Assembly (NCBI RefSeq): GCF_027925025.1
Contig: NZ_AP027058.1
Location: forward strand, 1,488,001 to 1,552,000
Source: Limnohabitans sp. MORI2
Lineage (GTDB): Bacteria > Pseudomonadota > Gammaproteobacteria > Burkholderiales > Burkholderiaceae_C
Length of the DNA: 64,000 bases
Direction of reading: 5' to 3'
Part shown: positions 18,237-25,279 of the stretch, piece by piece
Numbering within the stretch: the stretch's first letter is position 1
Layout: the number at the start of each line of letters is the position of its first letter
The notes under the pieces: model-generated
What the model was told of the DNA's origin: nothing
The model's input: the letters and a program-made list of their open reading frames with translations, nothing else
Databases searched by the model: none
Translations under genes and position numbers: made by a program

Positions 18237-19130
18237 ATGTCTGCCCCTACAAACCCAAGCGCCGCCACACAATCTGACACCTCCAGCTCAGTGCTGGAAT
18301 TTGCCAACTGCCAGTGGCGCGTGCGCAGGCCCAAGCCTTTTGTGTTGGTGATTGAAGGAGAAGTAGGCCAAGAAACTCCTAACGACTACCTGCACGACAA
18401 ACTTCTGCAACCCGAATGGCGCGAAGCTTTTTACAAACTGGTAGATGCTACGGGCCTGGTGGCGTGCCTAAACGTCCACACCCAGCACCCCACCTACCGC
18501 GATGTGCGCGGGCGCTCTAGCAAGGGGCGGCTGAGCCAAGGCGAGTACTACCACCACGACGGCTGCACGGGCCCCGTCAAGCCGCGCTTTGTGGAAATTC
18601 GCTGCCCCATCCAGCCGCAAACACGCGGCGTGGCCACGGCCATTGCGCCGCACCGCGATGTGGTCAAAGCCATGGTGCAAGTGCTGCCTGCCGAGCTGGC
18701 CGCCACATCCGCGCTGGCCACACAAGACATGAGCCCCGAAGCCTTGGAGCAAATGGACTACGCCGCGCTCGACCACCTGCAAGGCCTCATCACCCGTACC
18801 GTGCGCAAGAAGCTCAACGCCGAAGGCGCACGCAGCTACTTCCGCCAAGTCGATGCCGCCGCCAACGCCTACTTTGAACCTTGGGCCTTGGGCGAAAGCC
18901 GCTTGATTGCCAACGCCAACAGCGGCATCACCATGCAACACCGCCGCGCCTACCAAGCCCCACACACCGGCGGCGTGGCCAATGGCCACTTGGTCAAGCG
19001 CTGGACCAATGAAGAGCTGCTGCTACCCGGCCAAGTGGCAGACCTTGCCTTGATTACTGCGCTGTGCAGCGAAGAAGGTGATGAGGCGGATGGGGAGCGG
19101 GCTGAGGGGTGTTACCTCGGAGCGCATTGA
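18237..19130 (+). CDS. Uncharacterised protein, possible Fe(II)/2-oxoglutarate-type oxygenase
   Basis: A 297-residue soluble protein I do not firmly recognise. Y-Y-H-H-D-G at 104-109 provides an H-x-D (H106, D108), and ITMQHRRAYQAPH near 231-243 offers a distal His (H235) followed by Arg. That is the arrangement of TauD-like dioxygenases, but the spacing and surrounding sequence are not canonical. The C-terminus from about 278 is Glu/Gly-rich and different in codon use, and it ends 81 bases before the accessory island, so it may mark an island edge. It follows the ModA-like gene by 20 bases. Confidence 0.6.
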   Translation: MSAPTNPSAATQSDTSSSVLEFANCQWRVRRPKPFVLVIEGEVGQETPNDYLHDKLLQPEWREAFYKLVDATGLVACLNVHTQHPTYRDVRGRSSKGRLSQGEYYHHDGCTGPVKPRFVEIRCPIQPQTRGVATAIAPHRDVVKAMVQVLPAELAATSALATQDMSPEALEQMDYAALDHLQGLITRTVRKKLNAEGARSYFRQVDAAANAYFEPWALGESRLIANANSGITMQHRRAYQAPHTGGVANGHLVKRWTNEELLLPGQVADLALITALCSEEGDEADGERAEGCYLGAH

Positions 19131-19211
19131 TCTTGTCAAAGAAAAATCGCGCAGTAATGAGTCCTTAAAGACACTGGTATCTGAACTGCCCTTGAACCAA
19201 CGCCCATTGTT

Positions 19212-21656
19212 TCAAACATCAGAAAACACAAGTAATAGCTCTGCAACCACCATAACCTCATCGCCCAATTCAGAAGTAATAACAATTGGCTGATAGCCTG
19301 CATCACTAGAGTCTGGACTCAAAGTAATTCGGTTGTTCACATACTCCTCGTCTGAATTGAACTGCTTCTCGCTGTGATAAACCTTGACTGTAAAGCGCGC
19401 ACCTGTGTCAGGGCAATCAATACTGTGGTGCTGAACAACGACTACCTTTCCGTTTCGAGTACCGCCAGGATTAGCACGAAATAGGCACCACGCACCGTTT
19501 GGAATTCGGCGGTTCATGGATTCCCCAAGAACTTGGGCAACAAAAAGGCCAGGTTGGAAACTTAGCCAATCTGGTGGGGACACCCATGCCAAAGCTCCAT
19601 CGTCCAAGTTTTGGACCGAACTAAAGTTACCAGCTGCAAACTTCAAATCCAGCACCGGAATAGCATTAACACCTGCCATACGTTCAGGATCGCTCACGGT
19701 TTGCAATGGCAAATATGGCAAATCAGCGGGTACCGTTGTCCCTGGTAGTGGTTGATCTACAAGATTAGGAGACGCCGAATTTGAATGTTTGGCTGAAACC
19801 ATAAGTCGACTCCGCAAATGAGAGGCCAACGCAGGATCGGTACAGTAGACAAAACAGCCCTTCATTCCGCGAGTCATAAGCGTGCGGTATGTATTCTTAA
19901 TAATCCGATCAGCTAATTCTTTAGCATCCTGAGGCGCAGACTTTGCAAGGGACTTCAAACCTTTAACCGACTGATCTGATCGGGCTCGTTGGCTTACATC
20001 CGTAACGACATTGCCATCTGCAAAGCGTAAATCCTGCCCAATGATCACCCCAACATAGTCCAGCTCTAGGCCTTGACAGGTGTGAATACACCCCACCTCA
20101 GCTACTGAACTGGGAGCCATGATCCACAAACTTCCATCCTTGCTCAAATTCCAACGGCGTTTGTAATCGAACTCGGGCATCACAATATCCCAAGCTTCGG
20201 GAGTCTTCTTGCTAGGCCAAGTCCAGCAGTAACCCGCAACAACACGTGATCGATTGTTCCCAGCATTCTTTTGCTCAATCAAGCGATGCAACTCTGCTGG
20301 ACTATCGAGCACGCGCAGGTCGTACTCTGAAGTATCAAGCAAGGGGTTAGCTGTAGATCGAATGTCCAGTACGTCATCTAGCCAAGCTAAGTAGCCATCT
20401 GATCCTCTACACCGGAACTGAGACGCTAGTGAGAGCTGAGTAACCTCTGCATCCAAGAGTTGCGCCCATTGTTGTAAGACCTCGCTATGGCCGACGTCAT
20501 TCACCGTCACTACTTGATCATCATCGACAAAGAAAATACTGCAGCGAGCTGCCTGCATGAGCTCTTTGACTTGATGTTCACCTTGGTTGCGATAGAGTCC
20601 ACTTTTTTCATTCAGGCGATGGGCCTCGTCCACGATCAATACATCGTGGCTATCCTCCTCCGCCGTCATAAAGCTACCAGACCCCTTAAAGAGATTATTG
20701 AACCGTGTCTTGTTCATGGTGCCAGCAAGCCGTGCGGCATAGACTGCACGAGGGGCGGCATTCTTAGAGACATAGCTAACGTGCATCTGGCTCTGCAGCA
20801 AGCTACCCATTAAATTTAGAGCTACCACGGACTTTCCAGTACCAGGGCCACCCCGAACTATCACGACCTGCTTGCGATGCTCAGCACGTTTTGCAATATT
20901 CAGACAAGTTTCGTAAACAACCTTTTGATCATCCAACAATACAAACTCAGGCTTACCTTGCAGCAAAGCTCCAACGGCATCAGCCAATACTTTCGAAGGC
21001 TTGATACGACCATTTTCAATAGCGTAAAGAGTGTGACGTTTATCGCCATAGCGCACATGTTCGCGGATAAAGCTTTGAAGCTTGGCCTTTTCTTGAGCTA
21101 AGAACAAAGGCGCTCGCTTCACATGTGCAGAATAGTTCGGATGATCAATTTGCCCATCACGGGGGTAGTTGTGCAAGTACGCACAAGGCTGCAAACCAAT
21201 CGAACCTTCTTGAACAGCCGTATTGAAGTCCTCTAAATAAGCTGCATAAGACCAAGCTTGGTAACTTGGGTGCAAACCTTCGGTTTCACCACTACGCCCC
21301 CCTCGGTATGCCCAAACTAAGCCATCCTTATCGCTCACTCGTGCTGTTGACCATTGCTTCAACTCTACGATCACAACTTTAGGCTGGCGAAGCGCATCTA
21401 ATCCAGTGATTAAAAAGTCAATCCGCTTGGCACTCTGTGGCAACTGGTACTCAATAGCGACACCGATGTCATCTGGAATCTCCTCATCATGAAGCACCTT
21501 AGCCATTTCCATTAATGAGTACTTCCATGCCGCCATCTGAGGCTGCGCGGCGCCTTGACCTGAAACATTGCGCATTTGCTGCAGCAATACCTGCTCAATA
21601 TCGTCGTGCAAGGCGTGATGCAAAAACTCGCGCTTGTCTGATTGGTAAATAATCAC
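19212..21656 (-). CDS. DUF2075-type helicase fused to N-terminal nuclease and C-terminal LexA-like (S24) peptidase
   Basis: An 814-residue multidomain protein. Residues 60-105 look like a PD-(D/E)xK nuclease core (D80 in RIDFLITG, E98-x-K100 in VVIVELKQW). Residues 240-620 form a DUF2075/Schlafen-like superfamily 1 helicase with Walker A GGPGTGKS (269-276), Walker B VLIVDEAHR (339-347) and the late motif SSVAEVGCIHTCQGLELD. Residues 665-814 are a LexA/UmuD-like S24 domain: an Ala-Ala-Gly cleavage-site candidate (674-676), S713 in GESMNRRIPNGAW and K758 in FTVKVY, the complete Ser-Lys dyad. It is 20 bases behind the MazG gene. Activation by self-cleavage is inferred; a DNA-targeting defence role is plausible. 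Confidence 0.82.
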   Translation of the reverse strand: MIIYQSDKREFLHHALHDDIEQVLLQQMRNVSGQGAAQPQMAAWKYSLMEMAKVLHDEEIPDDIGVAIEYQLPQSAKRIDFLITGLDALRQPKVVIVELKQWSTARVSDKDGLVWAYRGGRSGETEGLHPSYQAWSYAAYLEDFNTAVQEGSIGLQPCAYLHNYPRDGQIDHPNYSAHVKRAPLFLAQEKAKLQSFIREHVRYGDKRHTLYAIENGRIKPSKVLADAVGALLQGKPEFVLLDDQKVVYETCLNIAKRAEHRKQVVIVRGGPGTGKSVVALNLMGSLLQSQMHVSYVSKNAAPRAVYAARLAGTMNKTRFNNLFKGSGSFMTAEEDSHDVLIVDEAHRLNEKSGLYRNQGEHQVKELMQAARCSIFFVDDDQVVTVNDVGHSEVLQQWAQLLDAEVTQLSLASQFRCRGSDGYLAWLDDVLDIRSTANPLLDTSEYDLRVLDSPAELHRLIEQKNAGNNRSRVVAGYCWTWPSKKTPEAWDIVMPEFDYKRRWNLSKDGSLWIMAPSSVAEVGCIHTCQGLELDYVGVIIGQDLRFADGNVVTDVSQRARSDQSVKGLKSLAKSAPQDAKELADRIIKNTYRTLMTRGMKGCFVYCTDPALASHLRSRLMVSAKHSNSASPNLVDQPLPGTTVPADLPYLPLQTVSDPERMAGVNAIPVLDLKFAAGNFSSVQNLDDGALAWVSPPDWLSFQPGLFVAQVLGESMNRRIPNGAWCLFRANPGGTRNGKVVVVQHHSIDCPDTGARFTVKVYHSEKQFNSDEEYVNNRITLSPDSSDAGYQPIVITSELGDEVMVVAELLLVFSDV

Positions 21657-21676
21657 AAACTATGCTCGATTAAGGT

Positions 21677-22030
21677 TTACAACGCGTCGTGTTTAGTGCT
21701 TCGCCCTTTGGCCTTCTCAACTGGGTAGCGTTGCTCGTTACGAGTGACCTTTTCATGAGCAGCTTTAGGTAGGTCAACCTGCAACGCATTGGCGAGTTGC
21801 ACTAGATACAACAGCACATCTGCCATTTCATCTGTAACCGCAGCCAATTGCTCAGAACTCAATGAACGGCTTTGTGCTTCCGTCAACCATTGAAATGGCT
21901 CCAACAGTTCTCCAGCCTCTACGACTAAGGCTGACGCTAGATTTTTTGGAGAATGGAATTGCGCCCAATCTCGCTCTTGGGCAAAGTCAGCCAATCGCTT
22001 CGAGAGTGCCAATAAAGTATCTGGATGCAT
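21677..22030 (-). CDS. MazG-like nucleotide pyrophosphohydrolase
   Basis: A 117-residue all-alpha NTP pyrophosphohydrolase. The metal-binding signature is complete: E38-x-x-E41 in EAGELLE and E68-x-x-D71 in DEMADVLLYL. The size fits the single-domain iMazG/RS21-C6 (dCTPase-like) group that hydrolyses (d)NTPs to monophosphate and pyrophosphate. It is immediately upstream of, and presumably cotranscribed with, the nuclease-helicase-S24 gene. In that setting it could deplete nucleotides during infection or clean modified nucleotides, but this is inference. Confidence 0.87.
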   Translation of the reverse strand: MHPDTLLALSKRLADFAQERDWAQFHSPKNLASALVVEAGELLEPFQWLTEAQSRSLSSEQLAAVTDEMADVLLYLVQLANALQVDLPKAAHEKVTRNEQRYPVEKAKGRSTKHDAL

Positions 22031-22106
22031 AAGATAAAGTACAAATTCAGCTTGAAATTTATTAAGATTTTCTCATCAATAGTGAAGACACGGATTTAAC
22101 GTAGTT

Positions 22107-22206
22107 TGCGGCGATAAAACCACATATTCACCGCAAAATATGCATTGAATATCTTGCACATGAGGCGCATTCACCGCATAATCACCGCATGAATAGCGGC
22201 GATAAA
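22107..22206. promoter_or_regulatory. Repeated TGCGGYGA operator-like elements at the fic start
   Basis: TCACCGCA occurs at 22128-22135, 22171-22178 and 22182-22189, the last overlapping the fic ATG. Its complement form TGCGGCGA is at 22107-22114, followed by TAAA. GCGGCGATAAA recurs at 22196 just inside the gene. Five copies in both orientations within 100 bases, across the divergent mazG/fic region, look like an autoregulatory operator. The Fic protein's own C-terminal winged-helix segment is a candidate binder. Confidence 0.5.
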
Positions 22207-23373
22207 CTTTATATCTGGCAGCAAGACACTTGGCCCAAGTGGACTTACGCGCACACGCGCTTGGCCCCACTACTGGCGCAAGTGCACCACGCACAAGGCC
22301 TGCTGCTGGGCCGCATGCACGACATTGGCCTAGAGCAACGCAACCAAGCCACTCTGCGCGTACTAACCGAAGACGTGATCAAGACCAGCGAGATCGAGGG
22401 CGAAATGCTCAACCCCGAGTCGGTGCGCTCGTCCATCGCCCGCCGCTTAGGCGTGGACATTGGCGCACTGGCCCCCACCGACCGCCATGTGGATGGCGTG
22501 GTGGACATGGTGCTAGACGCCACTCAGCAGCACGACCAAGCACTGACAGTGCAGCGCCTGTGCGGCTGGCACGCCGCCCTCTTCCCTACTGGCTATAGCG
22601 GCATGACGCCCATCCGCGTGGGTGCGTGGCGCAACGACGCACAAGGCCCCATGCAAGTGGTGTCTGGCCCGCCGTACCGCCCACGCGTGCATTACCAAGC
22701 CCCGCCTGCGAATACGCTAGATGCTGAAATGGCTTTGTTCCTAGATTGGTTCAACACCGCCAGCCAAGACGACCCGCTGATCAAAGCCGGGCTGGCCCAC
22801 TTGTGGTTTGTAACGGTGCACCCGATGGACGACGGCAATGGCCGCATGGGCCGCGCCGTGGGCGACTTGGCATTGGCCCGCGCCGAAGGCACAGCACAGC
22901 GCTACTACAGCCTGTCGGCGCAAATCCAGCGCGAGCGCAAAGACTATTACAACCAACTCGAACGCACCCAAAAAGGCACGCTGGACGTGACCGATTGGCT
23001 AGAGTGGTTTTTGGGTTGCTTGCTGCGCGCCGTGCAAGGCGCACAAGGCACGCTGTCTGCCGTGCTGAGCAAAGCCAACTTCTGGCGGCAATGGGCCGAC
23101 ACACCCATGAACGAGCGACAAATCAAACTGCTCAACAAACTGCTAGATGGCTTTGACGGCAAGCTCACCACCAGCAAGTGGGCAGCGATTGCCAAATGCT
23201 CGCAAGACACTGCTCTGCGCGACATCACCGAGCTGCTAGAGCGCGGTGTGTTGATGCGGTCTGAGGCGAGTGGGCGGAGTACGAGTTATGAAATTCGATC
23301 AATGCCGGTTGATGCATTTGGCAGCATCAAGCAAGGTTTGAATGAGGCTATTGCTCACGCAAAAAATCAATAA
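22189..23373 (+). CDS. Fic-family protein (class II, N-terminal inhibitory helix), predicted AMPylator
   Basis: A 394-residue Fic protein. The core motif HPMDDGNGRMGR is at 211-222 (catalytic H211; the canonical third residue is Phe, here Met). The inhibitory motif [S/T]xxxE[G/N] is T66...E70-G71 in KTSEIEGE, placing it in class II. Residues 310-375 form a winged-helix-like region (KWAAIAKCSQDTALRDITEL) that could bind DNA. Fic proteins usually transfer AMP to a hydroxyl side chain of a target. The ATG overlaps a TCACCGCA repeat, and I see no Shine-Dalgarno sequence. It is divergent from the mazG/helicase pair. Confidence 0.88.
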   Translation: MNSGDKLYIWQQDTWPKWTYAHTRLAPLLAQVHHAQGLLLGRMHDIGLEQRNQATLRVLTEDVIKTSEIEGEMLNPESVRSSIARRLGVDIGALAPTDRHVDGVVDMVLDATQQHDQALTVQRLCGWHAALFPTGYSGMTPIRVGAWRNDAQGPMQVVSGPPYRPRVHYQAPPANTLDAEMALFLDWFNTASQDDPLIKAGLAHLWFVTVHPMDDGNGRMGRAVGDLALARAEGTAQRYYSLSAQIQRERKDYYNQLERTQKGTLDVTDWLEWFLGCLLRAVQGAQGTLSAVLSKANFWRQWADTPMNERQIKLLNKLLDGFDGKLTTSKWAAIAKCSQDTALRDITELLERGVLMRSEASGRSTSYEIRSMPVDAFGSIKQGLNEAIAHAKNQ

Positions 23374-23394
23374 CCACTGAGCTGGCAGAACGTA

Positions 23395-23430
23395 AAGAAG
23401 CCGCCAACCCTTTCAGGTTGGCGGCTTCTT
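23395..23430. terminator. Bidirectional rho-independent terminator between fic and lpdA
   Basis: A 15-bp perfect stem (23395-23409 with 23416-23430) encloses a six-base loop. Its outer end is AAGAAG/CTTCTT, giving short T-rich tails on both strands. It lies between convergent genes and probably serves both. Confidence 0.8.
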
Positions 23431-23449
23431 TGTTTGCAGCGCGAAGCGT

Positions 23450-25279
23450 TTACTTCTTGCTAGGCGGCAAGTCCGTGCAGCTACCGTGCGCCACTTCTGC
23501 CGCCATGCCGATGCTTTCGCCCAGCGTGGGGTGTGGGTGGATGGTCTTGCCAATGTCGATGGCGTCTGCGCCCATCTCGATGGCCAAGGCCACTTCGCCA
23601 ATCATGTCGCCCGCGTGCGTGCCCACCATGCCGCCGCCGAGGATCTTGCCGTGGCCGTGGGCCTCGGGTGAATCGTCAAACAGCAGTTTGGTCACGCCTT
23701 CGTCGCGGCCATTGGCAATGGCGCGGCCCGAGGCGGTCCAAGGGAACAAGCCCTTTTTCACCTTGATGCCTTGCGCTTTGGCTTGGTCTTCGGTCAAGCC
23801 CACCCAGGCCACTTCGGGGTCGGTGTAGGCCACGCTTGGGATGACGCGTGCGTTGAACGCCGCAGCGGCCAAGTCTTTGTCGCCCTTCAACTCTCCTGCA
23901 ATCACCTCAGCCGCCACGTGTGCTTCGTGCACCGCTTTGTGCGCCAACATGGGCTGGCCCACGATGTCGCCAATAGCGAAGATGTGCGGCACGTTGGTGC
24001 GCATTTGAATGTCAACGTTGATGAAGCCGCGGTCGGTCACGGCCACGCCTGCTTTGTCGGCAGCAATTTTGTTGCCATTGGGCGTGCGGCCCACGGCTTG
24101 CAACACGAGGTCGTAAGTGCCTTCGCTCTTCGTGCCGTCCAACCCTTCAAACTGCACCTTGATGCCTTCGGGTGTGGCTTGCGCGCCCACCGTTTTGGTC
24201 TTGAGCATGATGTTGTCAAAACGGCCTTGGTTCATCTTTTGCCAGATCTTGACCAAGTCGCGGTCCGCACCTTGCATGAGGCCGTCCATCATTTCCACCA
24301 CATCCAAGCGTGCGCCCAGTGTGCTGTACACGGTGCCCATTTCTAGGCCGATGATGCCACCGCCGACGATGAGCATTTTCTTGGGCACTTCTTTGAGGGC
24401 CAATGCACCGGTGCTGTCGACCACGCGTGGGTCTTTGGGCATGAAAGGCAAATGCACCGCTTGCGAACCCGCGGCGATGATGGCGCGTTTGAACGCCACC
24501 ACTTTTTTGCTGGCCGTTTTCTCTTGGCCTGTGCCTGTGGTTTCTTGCACTTCAATGTGGTTTGCGCCCACAAAGTTGCCGTAGCCACGCACGATGCTCA
24601 CCTTGCGCATCTTGGCCATCGCGCCCAAGCCGCCGGTGAGTTTGCCAATCACCTTTTCTTTGTGGCCGCGCAGCTTGTCGATGTTGACCACTGGCTTGCC
24701 AAAGTCCACACCGAGGTCGCCCAAGTGCGCCACCTCGTCCATCACCGCTGCCACGTGCAGCAAAGCTTTGGATGGGATGCAACCCACGTTCAAACACACA
24801 CCGCCCAAGGTGGGGTAACGCTCGACCACCACCACGCTCAAGCCGAGGTCGGCCGCACGGAAGGCGGCGGAGTAACCACCGGGGCCACCGCCCAACACCA
24901 TCACATCGCATTCGATGTCGGCGCTGCCACCGAACGACGAAGCTGTGGGTGCAGGCGCAGCCGCCACGGGGGCAGCAGGCGAAGCAGCGGGGGCAGGTGC
25001 GGGCGCGGGTGCTGCAGCAGGTGCAGGAGCCGAAGATGCACCCTCACCGTCTAACACCAACACCACAGAGCCTTCGCTCACTTTGTCGCCCAGCTTGACC
25101 TTGAGCTCTTTCACCACGCCCGCGTGTGAGGATGGAATTTCCATCGACGCTTTGTCGGACTCCACGGTGATGAGCGATTGCTCAGCCTTGACGGTGTCAC
25201 CCACTTTGACGAGCAACTCAATCACGGCCACTTCGTCGAAGTCGCCGATGTCTGGAACTTTGATATCAATCAGTGCCAT
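23450..25279 (-). CDS. lpdA: Dihydrolipoyl dehydrogenase (PDH E3) with N-terminal lipoyl domain
   Basis: A 609-residue flavoprotein that reoxidises dihydrolipoamide of pyruvate dehydrogenase with NAD+. Residues 1-78 are a lipoyl domain (K43 in ESDKASM), joined by an Ala/Pro linker (80-112) to the E3 core. There are FAD-binding GGGPGG (130-135) and redox-active C162 and C167 in [13 protein letters not shown]. The C-terminal His segment [14 protein letters not shown] is complete. The extra lipoyl domain is usual in some betaproteobacterial PDH E3 subunits and is almost the same sequence as the first AceF domain. It is the third gene of aceE-aceF-lpdA, 9 bases after aceF. Confidence 0.95.

Follow-up and report, generated by a model that had tools for sequence, protein, structure and literature searches.

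A LexA-type domain as a putative self-cleaving switch on a Schlafen-family nuclease-helicase of Limnohabitans

Introduction

What might a LexA-like peptidase domain do at the C-terminus of a nuclease-helicase? The question is raised by a gene of Limnohabitans sp. MORI2 that lies in a 64,000-nucleotide stretch of contig NZ_AP027058.1 (positions 1,488,001 to 1,552,000), referred to here as the window. A preliminary description made from the sequence had read the encoded protein as a PD-(D/E)xK-like nuclease and superfamily 1 (SF1) helicase fused to a complete LexA-like autoproteolysis cassette. S24 self-cleavage is best known from repressors and UmuD, and RecA-triggered cleavage is established for LexA, UmuD, and CI. 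The domains and conserved residues, the LexA fold predicted for the tail, the repeated gain or loss of that tail, and the setting in a gene pair at a defense site make it probable that the gene and its MazG-like neighbor form a mobile defense-type pair in which the LexA-type tail of the nuclease-helicase would act as a one-shot, post-translational switch. Within this reading we infer self-cleavage, triggering by RecA, and a change of activity upon the cut.

Results

The C-terminal S24 domain

The C-terminal domain matched Pfam Peptidase_S24 over residues 672-762 (E = 3.8e-6; 27.0 bits, above the cut-off of 23.3). A lone-Pfam artefact was ruled out by a profile built without LexA and by a separate model of the tail, which gave a predicted LexA fold. 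By alignment, G676 of the putative cleavage site corresponds to E. coli LexA G85 and UmuD G25, S713 to LexA S119 and UmuD S60, and K758 to LexA K156 and UmuD K97. The claim of a LexA-like cassette, with cleavage site, Ser, and Lys in the order of LexA and UmuD, is borne out by alignment, predicted fold, and conservation, and the S24-like outcome of the fold prediction left it standing. Translation and alignment also placed D80, E98-L-K100, A674-A675-G676, S713, and K758 exactly where they had been claimed. No Pfam match to the N-terminal helix-turn-helix of LexA repressors was found, the N-terminal part of the protein being nuclease-like and helicase. The full-length AlphaFold2 model of the 814-amino acid protein had a mean predicted local distance difference test score (pLDDT) of 85.7 and a predicted template-modeling score of 0.73, with residues 673-681, around A-A-G, at pLDDT below 50; its 50 listed structure matches were mostly helicases, with no S24 proteins among them.

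Homologues were collected by a scan of genome contigs, from which the best 80 of 241 relatives were kept. By reading frame, 37 of these exceeded 700 amino acids (tailed) and 41 measured 610-648 amino acids (tail-less), with one frameshifted (L076) and one cut by a contig end (L079). S713 and K758 were invariant in all 37 tailed relatives, and a contiguous A-[AC]-G was present in 35. The C-termini of the other two (L060 and L061) raise the question of whether they are natural non-cleaving variants. The expectation that homologues keep the Ser-Lys dyad and A-A-G was upheld among tailed relatives, with these two exceptions at the cleavage site, and so was not refuted; from about half of the fetched homologues the whole domain is missing, which makes it optional. 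A protein search scored 7996 relatives; the best 120 were listed, every one of them tailed and with A-A-G, Ser, and Lys kept. Together, these results support a complete S24 self-cleavage cassette with a predicted LexA fold, retained over long divergence, and putative self-cleavage at 675/676 by S713 and K758 is the best reading of this conservation.

Nuclease-like part and helicase core

No Pfam match was listed for the N-terminal nuclease-like part at E up to 1. Residues D80, E98, K100, Q101, Q133, and Y137 were invariant in the core alignment, which took in 79 of the 80 relatives (the frameshifted L076 being excluded), and the PD-(D/E)xK-like residues of the preliminary description, D80 and E98-x-K100, are accordingly among those kept in 79/79. 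The combination of D, ExK, and QxxxY is what we take to be the RecB-like PD-(D/E)xK motif. In the full-length model, strands were predicted at residues 78-86 and 92-100, followed by a helix at 130-144 and a strand at 154-161; this strand order fits PD-(D/E)xK, but the structure-match list hardly covers residues 1-138. The invariant D, ExK, and Q-xxx-Y and the predicted strand order are consistent with a RecB-like PD-(D/E)xK nuclease.

The Schlafen group 3 helicase match spanned the whole Pfam profile (1-354 of 354), and the Walker A and B residues, K275 and E344, were also kept in all 79 aligned relatives. Structure matches of the full-length model included SLFN11, UvrD, Dda, and RecD2, with Dna2 and AddAB also listed; those to SF1 helicases and to human SLFN11 and SLFN14 lay mainly over residues ~217-620. 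An SF1 helicase had been claimed at residues 269-347, and although the helicase is present, that extent proved too short, taking in the ATP-binding motifs only of a Pfam domain that runs from 262 to 607.

The tail as an optional module

A core tree of the nuclease-helicase was built by a quick method from 80 rows, with L079 labeled tail-less. The tailed and tail-less labels needed 10 changes on this tree, at least 7 of them forced by well-supported branches, compared with ~27 changes for shuffled labels; the tail label is therefore clustered, yet not of single origin. These repeated changes, which include a sister pair of one tailed (L021) and one tail-less (L080) member, mark the tail as an optional module. 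Tail-less relatives terminate 0-37 residues beyond residue 612. A separate S24 gene near tail-less helicases was found only in L067 (fused to a DUF3427 protein), in L035 (UmuD-like, E = 0.0017), and weakly in L070 (E = 0.18), further matches having E values of 1.5 or worse. Such a gene serving the tail-less forms was rejected as a general rule.

Related tails on other proteins

When the tail profile was searched, a related domain (E = 3.7e-50) was found in a 1149-amino acid neighbor of the tail-less copy in L067. By Pfam, this neighbor has the SauUSI-like order of PLD nuclease, SF2 helicase, and DUF3427, which the window protein does not have. A search with the L067 tail returned 952 proteins; the 120 listed all carry DUF3427, some of these proteins being partial, and several are named Bacteroidota. 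The cleavage residues in these 120 were A-A-G, Ser, and Lys in 117, with V-A-G in 1 and A-A-S in 2. The tail of a methyltransferase-HNH-S24 fusion in L011 returned 103 proteins. A methyltransferase domain was present in nearly all of them and HNH_4 in many, and one was a TPR-S24 protein; A-G, Ser, and Lys were kept in 101 of the 103. In a third case (L097) the nuclease part differs from that of the window protein, its GIY-YIG match being weak (20.2 bits, under the cut-off of 22.6), and the tail is kept. Relatives of L097 were present in two further genomes of the 398 from the phylum, one of them matched at full length.

When 60 S24 domains were placed in one tree, the tails of the Schlafen and DUF3427 helicases stood apart from the five LexA/UmuD rows. 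This tree carries a long-branch warning, chiefly for the methyltransferase-HNH row.

Control of the gene pair

The genome of the window encodes RecA and one other S24 protein, which is LexA-like by sequence and tree. Scanning the window for CTGTN8ACAG with up to one mismatch gave 22 matches where 27 were expected, none of them in the interval that separates the operon from the divergent Fic gene. One-mismatch sites within 300 bases upstream were present in 5 of 81 loci, all five tail-less and the window not among them. Transcriptional SOS control is not supported by these LexA-box scans, in which one consensus was tried, and any control exerted by the tail would act after translation.

MazG-like partner and chromosomal site

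The MazG-like gene ends 20 bases from the nuclease-helicase gene, and the ExxE...ExxD motif of its product is intact. A MazG relative lay at most 100 bases upstream in 27 of the 34 tailed rows having more than 600 bases upstream (window included) and in 21 of 38 short-class rows, a class that contains the frameshifted L076. In L045, a further tailed row, and in L067 and L072, both of the short class, it lay at a greater distance. Relatives may have been missed, since the neighbor scan was limited to open frames of 70 amino acids or more.

The genes flanking the pair were sought in 12 genomes, including that of the window, and both were found on one contig in seven. The left-bound protein had no Pfam, NCBIfam, or PADLOC match; the right-bound gene was present at 88-91% identity in 7 of 11 sister genomes and at 80% in 2 more. 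The spacing between the flanks was ~0.13 kb in G052, where the site is nearly empty, 0.7 kb in G041 (holding CcdA/CcdB), 2.0 kb in G033 (the PADLOC candidate pair PDC-M43A/B, weak at 3.8e-10 and 4.1e-7), and 2.4 kb in G057 (a type I HsdR without its N-terminus). Larger spacings were seen in the window (4.3 kb), in G048 (17.7 kb; Fic, type I restriction-modification, and Avs3a), and in G011 (31.5 kb) (L094, L095). Accessory genes occupy this locus, with a strong leaning toward defense.

Within the genus, 2 of 61 genomes had the nuclease-helicase gene, the second copy being tail-less; in the phylum it was found in 7 of the 398 genomes (E up to 1e-60; window and L097 variant counted). Viral contigs yielded one relative, with a match ending at residue 618, and phage records four, with matches ending by residue 620. 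Among 41 matched plasmid records, one (Halomonas) had most of the protein. A viral or plasmid origin was rejected, given that the viral and phage matches stop by residue 620 and that a single plasmid record covers most of the protein.

The window Fic/DUF4172 protein matched PADLOC SoFic (2.5e-41), and a similar Fic protein at the corresponding site in G048 (L093:734-2026) was a SoFic match as well. A loosely linked family of neighbor proteins was observed in 10 of the 80 loci, 8 of them tailed, mostly upstream of mazG (L008, L017, L019, L024, L032, L035, L045, L053, L059, and L073). Three members were scanned with Pfam: L059 and L073 were TPR-rich, and L019 was without a match. This family is perhaps an extra component.

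Table 1. Coordinates of the features discussed (window positions unless a locus is named)
Feature	Position	Strand	Detail
Nuclease-like / SLFN-g3 helicase / S24 peptidase fusion protein	19212..21656	-	814 amino acids, GTG start
PD-(D/E)xK-like nuclease core, residues 60-165	21162..21479	-	D80, E98-x-K100, Q133-xxx-Y137
Schlafen group 3 DNA/RNA helicase domain (SF1), residues 262-607	19836..20873	-	Pfam PF09848 (SLFN-g3_helicase), E 2.3e-105
LexA/UmuD-like Peptidase_S24 domain, residues 660-814	19215..19679	-	
Putative self-cleavage site A674-A675-G676	19629..19637	-	cut expected 675/676
S713, putative nucleophile	19518..19520	-	alignment
K758, putative general base	19383..19385	-	alignment
MazG-like nucleotide pyrophosphohydrolase	21677..22030	-	Pfam MazG-like 2e-13; upstream gene, presumed two-gene operon
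Fic/DUF4172 protein, divergent neighbor at variable site	22189..23373	+	Pfam Fic 1.3e-13, DUF4172 1.1e-33; association only
Conserved 297-amino acid gene, left bound of variable site	18237..19130	+	85-92% identity in 6/11 sister genomes searched
Dihydrolipoamide dehydrogenase-like gene, right bound	23450..25279	-	name from sequence reading, not family search
Variable chromosomal site	19131-23449		
PLD - ResIII helicase - DUF3427 - S24 protein (SauUSI-like architecture)	L067:8262-11711		Pfam
Methyltransferase-HNH-S24 fusion	L011:2279-4567		upstream of tailed helicase; Pfam
GIY-YIG-like nuclease - Schlafen helicase - S24 tail	L097:2371-4569		732 amino acids

Discussion

We consider a portable, self-cleaving switch on defense nucleases the most likely role of the tail. 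A cellular signal, most plausibly a RecA filament on single-stranded DNA formed on damaged or stalled phage or host DNA, would lead to the flexible loop with A675-G676 being pushed into the S713/K758 site. The chain would then be cut at 675/676 and the 675-residue nuclease-helicase parted from the S24 domain. RecA is proposed as the trigger on the precedent of LexA, UmuD, and CI. As to the consequence, release or activation of the nuclease-helicase is a possible outcome, slightly favored over shut-off because nothing present in the tail-less relatives would be missing from the 675-residue product, which so resembles a complete enzyme. Removal of the enzyme, as happens to LexA, would be an equally conceivable result.

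Several observations weigh against a self-cleaving defense switch. The switch is optional, 41 of the 80 fetched loci being tail-less, and MazG does not adjoin every nuclease-helicase copy. In L060 and L061, Ser and Lys are kept and eight residues are inserted between AA and G, so that the usual scissile bond is missing. Two of the 120 listed DUF3427 fusions carry A-A-S; among the methyltransferase-HNH-type proteins, Gly is replaced by Ser in one and Lys by Asn in another. Only 5 of the 398 phylum genomes matched the tail profile at E up to 1e-20, always on a Schlafen-helicase protein, and the wider spread of cargo therefore rests on other phyla. Since the best PADLOC stretches cover only part of the 814-amino acid protein, it is not a recognized defense gene. 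Cleavage, RecA contact, and defense are predicted properties, as is the role as a switch.

A broader proposal takes together the PD-(D/E)xK-Schlafen helicase, the GIY-YIG-like Schlafen helicase, the SauUSI-like type IV enzymes, and the methyltransferase-HNH proteins. We suggest, tentatively, that a portable RecA-responsive tail on several unrelated DNA-attacking proteins would be a general, non-transcriptional SOS output that switches immune nucleases on or off.

The strongest alternative, though on balance somewhat unlikely, is that the tail is a safety brake: damage to the host's own DNA would give RecA filaments, the protein would be cut, its hydrophobic-Ala-Ala C-terminus would be a ClpX signal, and the enzyme would be degraded as a form of built-in restriction alleviation. 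LexA provides a precedent, in that its fragment ends in VAA and is a ClpX substrate. In the present family, cleavage would leave V/I/L/F/M-A-A at the new C-terminus in 21 of the 36 tailed rows counted (the window is among them, L060 and L061 are not), but A-A-C in 14 and A-A-A in one, and degron likeness is confounded with the cleavage motif because the peptidase itself needs A-A before Gly. The tail is also carried by SauUSI-like restriction architectures, for which, with target recognition built in, a brake might be of more use than a trigger; the persistence of tail-less relatives, however, argues the other way. According to PMC12707154 and PMC11109961, ClpXP removes HsdR after damage, as a brake would have it, but PMC11109961 describes EcoKI restriction alleviation as independent of the SOS response.

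A role of the gene pair in DNA repair or plasmid maintenance, and not in defense, we regard as unlikely. Repair proteins commonly include SF1 helicases, RecB-like nucleases, and S24 proteins, and no phage assay was found; against this stand its patchy occurrence (2/61 genus genomes and 7/398 phylum genomes, one of the latter the GIY-YIG-like variant) and a site that carries type I restriction-modification, Avs3a, or CcdAB in sister species. Improbable, too, is a non-cutting S24 domain kept for dimerization or for the docking of RecA, MazG, or DNA-repair partners. S24 domains do dimerize, and Ser and Lys remain in L060 and L061 without the usual A-G bond, but mere docking would give no reason for almost every examined member of three fusion families to preserve Gly, Ser, and Lys. 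Least probable is constitutive maturation, with the tail clipped soon after synthesis and no signal, or cutting of other proteins in trans, of which UmuD and LexA are also capable: regulated cleavage is itself something that we infer, but LexA-type sites are normally restrained until triggered, and a tail gained or lost this often is unlikely to be needed for folding.

Compared with known systems, the window tail shares with LexA, UmuD, and lambda CI its predicted fold, the Ser-Lys dyad, the [A/C]-G bond, and their identical order. It differs in its N-terminal partner, here a nuclease-helicase, in inter-strand loops that by alignment are longer than those of E. coli LexA and UmuD, and in its separate branch of the S24 tree. 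The Schlafen group 3/DUF2075 helicases with MazG share the core at 50-58% identity, and often the MazG neighbor, but those of the tail-less class (41/80 fetched loci) are without the S24 tail. Related S24 tails occur on at least 120 proteins of SauUSI type (PLD, helicase, DUF3427), including that of L067, whereas nuclease and helicase are unrelated to those of the window protein. Passages of PMC3874153 and PMC12707154 describe SauUSI with nuclease, ATPase, and DUF3427/SRA-like domain only. Dna2/AddAB-type proteins likewise combine a RecB-like D, ExK, and QxxxY with an SF1 helicase; the Schlafen-type helicase, MazG partner, S24 tail, and patchy accessory gene set the window protein apart. For the PADLOC systems Nhi, AbiO, and PDC-S41, the best stretches fell at residues 237-605, in or just before the helicase, missing both the nuclease-like part and the S24 tail and covering only part of each model; the PDC-S41 match (1.8e-19) consists of three stretches, its figures being those of the best one.

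A search of the open-access literature, a scope that leaves most subscription papers and bioRxiv outside, found no described case or study of a nuclease-helicase-S24 fusion, in agreement with the earlier statement that no studied system has exactly such a fusion. The fusion is already visible in annotation, for example as "DUF2075 family protein/SOS-response transcriptional repressor LexA." It would put a known switch on new cargo.

If S24 cleavage does control immune nucleases, a DNA-damage signal would act on defense enzymes by protein cutting, without new transcription. It would then be testable how DNA-cutting defense is restrained upon host damage or woken by phage replication, with the natural pairs of tailed and tail-less proteins and the several fusion partners as built-in controls. 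The shared tail on DNA-targeting proteins hints that DNA damage may be linked directly to bacterial immunity.
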